64,000 bases of DNA from Utricularia gibba. Its lineage: Eukaryota; Streptophyta; Magnoliopsida; Lamiales; Lentibulariaceae. Position numbers and translations under genes: made by a program. Positions 537-42,434 of the stretch are shown here, piece by piece. The notes below the pieces were generated by a model. That model had not been told where the DNA came from and ran no database searches. It saw only the letters and a program-made list of their open reading frames with translations. Each line of letters opens with the position of its first letter. The first letter of the stretch is position 1. The stretch covers positions 1,054,001-1,118,000 of the forward strand of contig NEEC01000016.1 of NCBI GenBank assembly GCA_002189035.1. The letters run 5' to 3'.

Positions 537-2949
537 ATGGTTCAATTCTGGTTGGAGTTGGGGGTGTTGTTGGTATCTCTCCTCCTGATTCTGGTCCGCT
601 GGAAGACTACACGGCGGAGGAATCTTCCGCCGGGGGGCACCGGCTGGCCATTCATCGGAGAAACGATTGGGTACCTGAAACCGTACCCTGCAACTACTCT
701 GGGGAAGTTCATGGAACACCATATCAAAAGGTGAGGTAAGAGCTTTTTGTCTGATTCAAGGATTGATTACCCAGAAGGAAAGGTTGGATTTTGCGAGGTG
801 GGTAGGGTTGTGATTGTGTTTCTGGGTGTGTGTTCAGGTATGGGAAGATTTACAGGTCTCATTTGTTCGGGGAGCCGACGGTTGTTTCAGCGGATGCGGG
901 TTTTAATAGGTTTATTTTGCAGAACGAGGGGAAATTGTTCGAATGCAGCTATCCGAGGAGTATTGGTGGGATTCTTGGGAAATGGTCGATGCTTGTGTTG
1001 GTAGGAGAAATGCACAGAGACATGAGAACCATTTCTTTGAACTTTCTGAGCAACAACAGGCTCAGATCTCACCTTCTCCGCGAGGTGGAGAAGCATACGC
1101 TGCTCGTTCTCTCTTCCTGGATTCACGATTCTGTGGTTTCTGCTCAGGATGAAGCCAAGAAGGTATGATATATATAACTAAAACGTCTGTTTTCTGACGG
1201 AAATCCTGATCGAAACTGAGAGTTTTTGGGCGATTGCAGTTCACATTCAATCTAATGGCGCAGCATATAATGAGTCTGGAACCAGGGGCTCAAGAAACAG
1301 AGCAGCTGAAGAAGGAATACATTACCTTCATGAAGGGAGTGGTGTCTGCTCCTCTGAATTTCCCTGGAACGCCGTATAGAAAAGCTCTCAAGGTAGCTTA
1401 CTTTACTCGATAATTCACTGTCCAAATTGTATGATTAACAGAGGATTGGCTTCAACAGTCAAGGTCTACAATCCTGAAGTTCATAGAAGGGCGAATGGAA
1501 GAGAAAAGAAAGCGGCAGAATCAGCGGAAGGAAGAAGAAGAGGAGGATTTGTTGGGGTGGGTGATGAAGAACTCATCTTTGTCGAAAGAGCAAATCTTGG
1601 ACTTGGTTCTCAGCCTACTCTTCGCCGGCCACGAGACGTCGTCGGTCGCCATCGCCCTCGCCATCTACTTCCTCCAGAGCTGTCCATCTGCCGTGGAGCA
1701 GCTAACAGTGGGGATCCTTCCTTCCATTCTCTTGTAATTGACAACAACACACACGTACTCGTACTCAGCAACTGCAACCCACTCTTAACAGGAAGAGCAC
1801 AGGGAGCTCAAGCGGAGATCGGGGAGCGGCGGTCTGACGTGGGAGGATTACAAGAAAATGGCCTTCACACAATGCGTGAGCGCAAAAAAACCCACCAATC
1901 AAATTCATTCTCTCTTCTCCCAATGTAATGCAAGAGAGTCATCCTTGGCACTCGTCGTTGCAGGTTGTTCACGAGACTCTCAGACTGGGAAATGTTGTCA
2001 GATTTCTCCATAGAAAAGCTCTCAAGGACGTCAGGTATGGAGGTAAGCACCCCACTATCTCACACCTATCTTTTATCTTTCTCATCGTATTAGTGAGTCT
2101 GTTTTCTTGCTCCCCAGAGTATGAAATTCCTTGCGGGTGGAAGGTGTTGCCGGTGATCTCAGCCGTTCATTTGGACGAATCCCTTTTCGACCATCCCTGC
2201 CGCTTTGATCCATGGAGATGGCAGGTTTGTTAAAAGCAAATTACGCACTTTCGTTCCATAAAGGAATAGAAGAAAAGGTTCCAAAAAAAAAAGAAGAAAA
2301 AAATAGTATTTTCCATGGGAAGGGGACCGGGCACAGGAAGTGAAGGTGCAGTAAATTTAAAGAAGCCGTGTGGGCGAGAGAGAGAAACAGAGGGGAGGAG
2401 GAGTTAAGAGAAGCAAACAAAAAACCAGAGCCAGACTGCAAGGCAGGGCACACGTGGGTGTGTAGGGGCCCACCCCTCATGATTAATTGTTCTGACAACG
2501 CCAACCCCCATGTGGATCACACGTGGGGTGTGCGTTCGCACGTGTGCCCCCGTTTCCATCTCGGTCCCCCTAGGCCCAATCTCCCTCCCTCAATCCATGA
2601 GACATCATCCATCCTCCTTCCTTAGCTTACAGTTTTGAATTTACGATGCCTTTCCTTGGACTGCGCAAGTGTGACTCCCCTCTTCGGAAATCATTTCAGG
2701 GCAGAGGGGAGGAGCGGGCCTCGTGGTCGGAGCCGTCGAGAAGCAGCTACTTCATGGCCTTCGGGGAGGGCCGCGGCTGTGCGCCGGATCGGAGCTGGCG
2801 AAGCTTGAGATGGCGGTGTTTCTTCACCACCTGGTGCTCAACTTCAGGTGGAGGCTTGATGGGTCCGATGATCACCCCTTCGCATTCCCCTTCGTCGACT
2901 TCCCCAGGGGTTGCGCATCCATGTCCAAAGAACCGATGGGGAGTTGTAG
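537..2949 (+). CDS. CYP90B1: Steroid 22-alpha-hydroxylase, DWARF4-like cytochrome P450 (two frameshifts in last exon)
   Basis: This ER-anchored P450 hydroxylates C-22 of campestanol-type sterols, the rate-limiting step of brassinosteroid synthesis. Eight exons can be placed: 537-730, 838-1162, 1240-1392, 1459-1707, 1792-1875, 1964-2042, 2118-2224 and 2700-2949, all with GT-AG introns. An N-terminal hydrophobic anchor precedes the [20 protein letters not shown] hinge. LFAGHETSS is the oxygen-binding I-helix and [17 protein letters not shown] covers the ExxR region. The closest family I recall is CYP90B1. In exon 8 the reading frame breaks twice. SSYFMAFG (ending near 2766) runs into [15 protein letters not shown], the haem-cysteine loop, only with one extra base near 2763-2770. 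FVDFP then needs one extra base near 2902-2910 to reach a normal end with stop at 2947. With both bases the CDS is exactly 481 codons. As written, the gene could not make the haem ligand loop. An assembly error is more likely than decay. Confidence 0.93.
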
Positions 2950-3257
2950 TAACAAAAAAGGGGTGCTTTAGTGAGAGTAAGCAGTAGATAATTGTTTCTG
3001 AAGAGGGCAGCTTGACCAATAAAAAGGCAAAGCCGATTCATGGTTTCTTAGTGTAATGATGCTCACACATGGACCGGCTTTGTTGGATTCCATTTGGGAC
3101 TTGGGCCGTAGTAGGCAGCTAGCTTTACTTAACAGATAATGAGACTCTGAAACATGGGCCAGCCCAACATGGCTTTGCAACCGGACACGGACACGGACAC
3201 GTGGCGGTATCCGAAGCAAGGGTACATGTTTTTGCAACTGATACAGTGACAACAGGG
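2950..3257. other. Convergent spacer between P450 and ARL2 genes
   Basis: This must hold the 3' ends of both flanking convergent genes. A short GGACAC triple repeat is at about 3183-3201. No gene is seen. Confidence 0.6.
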
Positions 3258-39886: not shown

Positions 39887-41586
39887 AATCCATGGCTGAT
39901 TACTCTCCCACGAGTTGGTTTGTTCATTAACAATGCATCAGTGGTTTTGTATTGGAGCAAATGGTGAAGGATTACATGTTGCATACTGAAGAAAAGGTTT
40001 CTCCTTGCCAAATAATCACGTCAACCTGATTTGAAGTAATAAATTGTTGGAATATTTAATTATTATATTGAATAGAGTAAATTTTAATTCGTCTTAAATG
40101 ACTAAAATGATACACGGTTATATCTTATACATTACCTACTTTTACGAAATCGATTGCGTTTTATCTGATTATTCTTACTATATAAAAATAGTTTTTTCTT
40201 TCATAACAAATCATATGAATTTTGGATTTAACTTATCAAACCAAATGGTTAAAAATACATTTACAGCATCGGATTATCGTATCTGTGACACAAATCCGAG
40301 AACAAAGGACTATGGTTTAGCACAAATGATGTGGGATAGAACAAAGTGGAAGGAGCTCACCAAAATGGCCCATCAAAGAAGAATAATACTCAAAACCTAT
40401 TAAACTGTTTGATAGTTGGTATAAGAAGTGATATAGCGGGTATTAAAATGCGTAAAGTATGTTTGTTAGTCAATATAAGTTTTTCTCAATACATTTTTTC
40501 TCCTTATTATAAATATATATTTATCTGGCATACCATACTTTTTAAATTTATGTTAATATCGCGGATAAATTTACACCTCAAAACCCATACTCCACACCAG
40601 ATGCCATACCTGAAGAAAGTACTAAAACATGATGAACCAGACAAGCAACACGGTTCAAGCTTCTACACTACTGGTTCGATTCTCAGTGCTGACAATGCGT
40701 TTGCTTTCTGATGGTTATTGAACTTCTGATCTCAACCTAAGAGATTCCCAGTAACTCTTTCCACTGAACACCCTCCCAATGGAAGCACATCTTTAACTGA
40801 ATAGAAGAAGCTCCTGTCCCATTCCATTCATTTGTTCAGCAAGCATTGAACTAACCCATTGTTAATGCAGAATGGTGATGGCTTCATCACTTTCACTATC
40901 CATCAGCAGCAGCAGCAGCAGCACATTTCAGCATCAGGCGCTCAGTGACACTCAAGTGTCTGTTCTTTAATGTCGAGTGGGTTGGCTGCTCCCAGTGGGC
41001 GATGGGTATATTTTAGTTAGCCTCCGGGGGAGAGCTGCTGCATAGGCGCTTTGCTACACGTATTTCTCGGGGGTCGGTTTTCTGGTTGGCTCTGCTCGCG
41101 GCCCATTTCTGCTGCGACATGGCGAGCCCATGGAAGCCAGCGCGGAGCTTTCCAGATTCCGGGAGTCCGGTGGCGCTGATTCACTGACTAAAAGTTGGAA
41201 GTTTGGTAGATTATTATTTATTTATAAATGAATATTTTAAGAGAGTCATATTTTGGAGATTTTTTTAGTAATATTAAACATTAACATGAATTCTCATTTT
41301 CTTTCATGTTTAAATTATTTATTAAATTTAAGATTCAATCGAAAAAAATATTCTTTTAAAAATGAAAATTTGTAAGAAAGAATACAAAAATCAACTAACT
41401 TTTTTAAAAAATTCGTGTGTTTGCATCGTAAAATATATAAATTAAATTGAATTAAAAAATATATAATTATGGCAACGTAATAAAAAAATAGAGTATTTTG
41501 AATATTTTCTCATTTTAAAACTGAATTTCGAAAAGGCGAAGGGAAATTGCATTTTCTTCGAAATTCGAGGTGAGCGTTAAATCACT
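39887..41586. other. Spacer before the LBD gene
   Basis: Frames at 40098-40403 and 40346-40711 (+) are AT-biased and unrecognised. A CAG run lies at about 40902-40922. From 41180 the sequence is AT-rich. No gene is recognised. Confidence 0.5.
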
Positions 41587-42434
41587 TTAGGCAGGAAGAA
41601 TCCCCAACTCCATTTGGCACGCGCCGCCGCTGGCTGCTGAGTCTTTTGGATTCATGCAGCGGTTCACCGGCCACAGTCCTAGACTGAGATCGAGCTCGAT
41701 GTCATCGTCGTGGTTCTCTCCCGCGAGTTTGAGTCAACGTCCGTCACCGGGGAACTCCGGCACGGGCTCTCTCTGTCCACAACCTCGGCGGCCGCCGCGG
41801 CTGACTGATGGCTCAACGTAGACCCATGGCTCGGGGACTGATCCTCCTCCGATTCCAGTTGCCGACGCGCTCCGGGCCGCTTGAATCGGGTGCCGGACCG
41901 TACACGGTTCAGGGCCATCGCACCCGAAAACTGCTTCTTGTCCTTTTTACAAACGTGTCTGATGTCGTATCCTTTCACGTCCGGGGCGTCGGACGCCGCC
42001 ATCTTCTCGATGGGAACTCCTTTGAGAACTGCGTCCACCGCGTCCTGACAGAGCTGCCACTTCCCCGTCTCCAGCAACCCCACAGACCCATAAATCGGAT
42101 TCACGATTCTCCCACAGGCTTCGTACAGCAGAGACCTGAATATAGCTGTTCCACCCAAAACAACCAAAAATCAGAAACCCACAACTATTAAAGGCGGCTC
42201 CTTTGAAGCACAAGAACACGGAAATTCTCCCGGCGACTGACCTTGGCGCATACGCGGCGGTTTCCCCGCATTGATGAGGTTAACCAGGCCGGTGCGGCCG
42301 TAGAACTTGGCGAGGAAGACGGTGGCGTTGGCCTGAGCGTCCGGGCTTCTGATCCACTCCAGGCTCTGCCTTATGGGGCAGTCGTCGCTGCACCCCTTCC
42401 GCAAAACTCGGCATCCATTGCAGCTCAGCCGCAT
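41587..42434 (-). CDS. Class II LATERAL ORGAN BOUNDARIES DOMAIN protein (LBD37-42 type), one late frameshift
   Basis: Class II LBDs are nuclear regulators linked to nitrogen and anthocyanin metabolism or hypoxia. Exon 1 is 42242-42434 and exon 2 ends at 41587 if one missing base is allowed. [19 protein letters not shown] shows the C-x2-C-x6-C-x3-C zinc motif. [20 protein letters not shown] and [20 protein letters not shown] complete the LOB domain without the class I leucine zipper. In the written frame the protein stops at 41679, just before the family's C-terminal repression motif. One base added to the run at 41720-41722 continues into [14 protein letters not shown], the expected EAR motif, and 250 residues in total. 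The shift must lie after the alternative-frame TGA near 41746, which narrows it to about 30 bases. Confidence 0.92.

Follow-up and report, generated by a model that had tools for sequence, protein, structure and literature searches.

The 64,000 nucleotides of the Utricularia gibba assembly analysed here (the window, C402:1054001-1118000, from a genome of 100,091,633 bases in 516 contigs) contain four genes whose reading frames are interrupted at five sites: a P450 gene with two breaks, and a HAN-type GATA gene, an HD-Zip gene and an LBD gene with one break each. The designations CYP90B1, GATA, homeodomain, LOB, Tub, BES1 and Myb derive from matches to profile or structure databases, and the names HAN, DWF4, AS1 and PAT1 are presumed by us to apply to genes here. 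An earlier note on this DNA had described the five sites as single-base deletions, each within a G or C run 2-5 bases long. All five frame breaks are indeed present, within at most about 25 bases of the sites noted, and it is very likely that they are errors left in the consensus of a long-read assembly, which sometimes gives short G/C runs with one base too few. Judging from the sequence comparisons described below, the plant most likely has the missing bases, and all four genes most likely work.

The P450 gene (537-2949, forward strand) is of the CYP90B1 (DWF4) type. Its exons are recognisable by eye, the Pfam p450 profile is above its cut-off in two of the four pieces, with the middle piece matching, and the last exon is spread over three frames. 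By frame reading, one base is missing in the G4-A-G3 stretch at 2763-2770 (forward strand) in the haem-binding loop, and another one in the C4-A-G4 stretch at 2902-2910 (forward strand) near the C-terminus. The piece between the breaks (2768-2908, 47 residues in a frame of its own) matches the CYP90B1 structure of PDB entry 6a15 with an E-value of 2.5e-20 over 46 aligned residues; the next-best solved enzyme reaches an E-value of 0.013, and CYP90B1 is thus the closest solved relative as far as this 47-residue piece is concerned. The HAN-type GATA gene (5040-5692, reverse strand) has two exons, the first with an uncertain start, and an intron splits its zinc finger. Both exons give GATA matches, one half remaining below the Pfam cut-off alone, and there is a homeolog on contig C505. 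The break (5334-5350, reverse strand) is one of spacing: from the WRNG codons to the splice donor, 14 bases are found in both HAN copies, the one on C505 being equally short, versus 15 in six other GATA genes, in a search whose pattern permitted 14 or 15 bases only. The placement at 5341-5342 that had been proposed for this break is one possible spot, but it is not unique within about 5340-5347.

In the HD-Zip gene (25328-26292, reverse strand), the two halves of the homeodomain lie in two frames and are individually below the Pfam cut-off. The break falls on a C4 run within the homeodomain (25877-25880, reverse strand), at which the homeolog on C505 has one extra base and remains in a single frame throughout. 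The LBD gene (41587-42434, reverse strand) has two exons, both with matches to the LOB domain, and an LxLxL tail in a shifted frame. Its break can be bracketed to 41709-41732 (reverse strand), a stretch including the G3 run 41720-41722 where the earlier note had placed it: the first frame stops near 41730, and a conserved tail of 10 residues is already in the next frame by 41709, while the homeolog on C505 is open. The LOB domain lies entirely before this break, and the far side rests on the tail that is common with the homeolog. The claim of single-base deletions thus holds at four sites, each of which is one base short, and the LBD site, with its bracket of about 25 bases, is only consistent with it, one lost base being likely from the frames on either side. 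None of the four genes has indels of varied length or accumulated stops, as judged by reading the sequence.

That the sites lie in G/C runs means little alone, since these exons have many of them, and it gains meaning from a permutation test on GRAS genes of the same genome rather than on the window sites. A search for GRAS genes yielded 69 matches, and in many cases two of them are parts of a single gene lying in different frames. For a frame-aware alignment, 39 loci were used (19 split or odd ones and 20 of the 24 full-length ones), with loss and gain penalised equally and a profile built from the 20 full-length loci. On the aligned paths there were 22 losses, 4 gains and 1 in-frame stop, none of them in the 20 full-length loci; stops inside 8 of the 69 matches were listed by the raw search. 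The split matches of L006 and L015, which had counted as one gain and one loss, were rejected as breaks because they are introns (GT...AG gaps), and without these two loci there are 21 losses and 3 gains. By genes, 14 of 40 are broken in the domain (24 are full-length and 2 intron-split), in a count that omits L018, L019, L021 and two small fragments and includes two near-identical copies (C316, C412).

Runs were scored for 19 of the 22 losses, L015, L018 and L021 being dropped; L018, L019, L021 and the second event of L016 were kept out of the run statistics on account of long inserts, a contig end or a stop, and the first loss of L016 was retained. In these 19 intervals, the longest G/C run has a mean of 4.05 versus 2.34 expected (3,000 random draws, p <= 0.0003), and a G/C run of at least 4 is found in 12 of them versus 1.98 expected, whereas A/T runs show no excess (2.53 versus 2.50 expected). 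Sorted by the longest G/C run, 4 losses have a run of six, 1 of five, 7 of four, 6 of three and 1 of two bases, and the background contains 9, 27, 154, 540 and 2,982 runs of these respective lengths (one of the scored losses, in L016, is outside the background loci). Longer G/C runs are affected most. Some placements involved a choice: for L012 the automatic one was kept, with a reading by eye pointing to a C6 run about 30 bases upstream; L014 is scored as a gain, and two losses, which fit equally well by eye, are uncounted; and the two losses of L002 fall in one interval that was entered twice. The 33 background loci have 18 losses in 38.8 kb, or about 1 per 2.2 kb, a slight overestimate since four full-length genes were unused. 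In the paralogs L003, L004 and L007 the break is at one common profile position in a conserved C-run, which means that an error can strike corresponding sites of related genes repeatedly and thereby mimic an inherited loss.

A more immediate comparison is offered by small contigs that repeat parts of large ones, of which four pairs were compared, two near-identical and two diverged; three more long pieces with less than 99% identity were skipped. Diverged DNA is expected to have more substitutions than indels. The pair C376/C413 has no substitution in 9,501 columns and two one-base indels, both of them in G/C runs (C7/C6 and G4/G3), and C88/C451 has 1 substitution in 9,902 columns, together with seven one-base indels (2 in G/C and 5 in A/T) and one two-base indel. 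Among runs of at least 4 bases in these two clean pairs, 4 of 69 G/C runs are discordant versus 2 of 349 A/T runs (Fisher p 0.008). Two of the G/C indels hit genes: a GATA gene is open over 218 amino acids in C413 (finger 61.8 bits), while the first frame of the broken C376 copy has no finger at E 0.01, and an HD-Zip gene is open over 210 amino acids in C88 and over 169 in C451, with the homeodomain kept and the tail lost. In both cases the longer run is the open copy, and the genes are of the same classes as in the window; the other two G/C indels are outside any recognised gene. The pairs C316/C412 and C241/C304, whose compared pieces differ by 12 and 18 substitutions, are uninformative, being haplotypes or repeats; in C316, the three one-base G/C differences (3 of 3) are absences from the small contig.

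Broken examples are found also in HSP70, KCS and UGT genes. Adjacent match pairs were chosen by eye from the tables for GRAS, UGT, KCS, P450, HSP70 and chaperonin, giving 32 split-match pairs. After removal of possible introns, 27 clean ones were left, from the GRAS, UGT, KCS and HSP70 tables, of which 24 are one base short and 3 are one base long or two short. The chaperonin candidate was discarded for a possible intron, these genes having many small exons, and a rate of broken UGT genes was not taken, as the matches cover mainly one domain half and short open frames may be introns. Among the HSP70 genes, C304:2235823-2237462 and C241:16598-18237 have the same one-base break, on contigs separated by 16 substitutions over 3 kb.

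The excess of losses in GRAS genes, their clustering at G/C runs and the disagreement of repeated contigs thus support the systematic under-calling of G/C homopolymers that had been proposed from the window alone. The consensus would record certain G/C runs one base short, with either the sequencing chemistry or the building of the consensus as the probable cause, and the miscount may repeat at one site, as suggested by L003/L004/L007, by HSP70 on C304 and C241, and by the two HAN copies. We infer that the window sites belong to the same process as the breaks in the repeated contigs and the GRAS genes.

The window has a duplicated counterpart, in that 89.9 kb of C505 are largely collinear with it, and the breaks occur on both sides. 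The HD-Zip and LBD genes are broken in the window and open on C505, whereas a tubby-family exon (16003-16674, reverse strand; Pfam Tub, E 4.1e-73) is open in the window and one base short on C505 (G5 versus G4), and a BES1-like gene, open in the window as well, has on C505 a frame change in a bracket that contains a G6 run. A different picture is given by an AS1-like MYB gene, which is open in the window (33274-34317) and has an apparently decayed counterpart on C505 (at about 433 kb), with nine gaps of 1-10 bases (1, 2, 3, 5, 8, 10) in both directions within 337 aligned bases. For the P450 gene, no match was found in the duplicated block, here C505:399001-408900, nor any second full copy by DNA search; a relative on C3 was dropped as a test of the P450 sites, being a short relic only. 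A GRAS gene, in turn, adjoins the C505 copy of HAN, so that different genes have seemingly been retained after the duplication.

The homeologs were also compared with the aim of showing that selection still acts on the reading frames past the breaks, by counting how many of the differences found there are at third codon positions, as read in the frame of the family. These are 9 of 14 for HD-Zip, 6 of 9 for LBD, 34 of 50 for the tubby exon and 26 of 37 for HAN exon 2, in a stretch whose first 21 bases are intron. Since a dead copy with one constrained partner keeps such a bias, it does not separate live from dead genes, and the counts argue at most against very old breaks.

The obvious alternative is that the losses are true, the genes being copies from a whole-genome duplication that have died or are about to. 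The location of the window in a duplicated block and the C505 copy of the AS1-like gene, which looks truly decayed, show that such genes can be expected here, and third positions fail to set that copy apart from the broken genes. Nevertheless, this alternative is improbable. Decay in the AS1-like copy took the form of gaps of many lengths both ways, as opposed to the lone breaks in the window genes, and neither varied indels nor in-frame stops were found alongside these breaks; in the 39 GRAS loci, there are 26 frame calls versus a single in-frame stop. The broken member of a pair is sometimes the one and sometimes the other homeolog, and the same kind of break affects HSP70 and also one of two near-identical contigs. 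The P450 gene, of which no second full copy was found, has two close breaks in exons that are otherwise recognisable. It could also be imagined that the bases are absent from the DNA and that slippage or insertional editing puts them back into the messenger, which would fit with the conserved sequence going on in the family frame past the breaks. This would leave unexplained why two assembled copies of near-identical DNA disagree, and to our knowledge there is no such messenger base-restoring system for plant nuclear genes, so that this idea can practically be dismissed.

For HAN alone, an inherited variant has to be considered, in which one base was lost before the duplication, the donor was shifted four bases downstream, and the finger loop gained one residue. 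Both copies are one base short, and each has a GT four bases past the usual donor, in line with this variant. On the other hand, the usual length is found in six GATA paralogs, and the window gene still has a good-looking donor at the usual position, according to the donor consensus. Ahead of the donor, the copies show three differences. Taken literally, each of these alters an amino acid, whereas in the family frame two are silent and the remaining one is either silent or a Lys/Arg exchange, according to where it is placed, a weak indication with n=3. The break in HAN is therefore read here as a repeated miscount, and the inherited variant is a small rival with little probability, if marginally more than a true loss of all the genes.

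Several observations weigh against consensus errors as the explanation. The shortness of both HAN copies demands that an error recurs at one site, and an inherited loss would give the same break in both; likewise, an inherited loss would look alike in the HSP70 genes of C304 and C241. A loss common to several copies is no proof of an old event, though, as the same site is short in the HAN and HSP70 pairs and in three GRAS paralogs. The LBD gene differs from its C505 copy by 5 bases in length at the break site. A/T runs miscount as well: in the two cleanest pairs, which have 9 one-base differences in all, they account for 5. The direction of the breaks alone is no proof, because with an assumed 3:1 bias of true mutations towards deletion, the split pairs give p = 0.067. 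The third-position test says little, the decayed AS1-like copy giving 32 of 57. Finally, GRAS coding sequence has about 1 error per 2 kb, which is more than would be expected for a polished assembly of 88-fold coverage. Taken against the disagreement between repeated contigs and the G/C clustering in GRAS genes, residual consensus errors are still by far the most probable explanation.

Caution is thus needed with gene losses or truncations claimed from this assembly, which are unsafe if a frame change by one base in a G/C run is what supports them. A truncation of DCL3 published for U. gibba does not belong to this class; its authors report in PMC8333044 that they checked it by transcripts and 5' rapid amplification of cDNA ends (RACE). 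The repeated small contigs (C88 and C376, also C241 and C316) are replicates from which consensus error can be measured without any reads. In the literature on U. gibba that was covered, which did not extend to the original genome paper, no title reports this artefact for the genome, and no PacBio/Quiver statement on such errors turned up in the literature searched. The assembly analysed here is presumably the PacBio/HGAP genome of U. gibba, for which a table in PMC5793159 gives assembly by HGAP with 88-fold coverage, a contig N50 of 3.4 Mb and a size of 82 Mb (here about 100 Mb).

The type of artefact is already known for long-read assemblies. In PMC12007338, a nanopore assembly is described in which one-base indels tied to homopolymers fragment genes and are mostly false deletions, much like here, and an assembly from PacBio RSII reads only is cited there as having many indels. 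A difference is that the nanopore assembly described there is reported to err more at A/T than at G/C, whereas the GRAS breaks here are at G/C runs without an A/T excess. With pseudogenes from fractionation after whole-genome duplication the breaks have in common that one member of a pair is broken (HD-Zip and LBD in the window, the tubby exon and the BES1-like gene on C505), and they differ from these in that the window genes lack the varied indels of several bases that mark the AS1-like copy and that it can be either homeolog that is broken.

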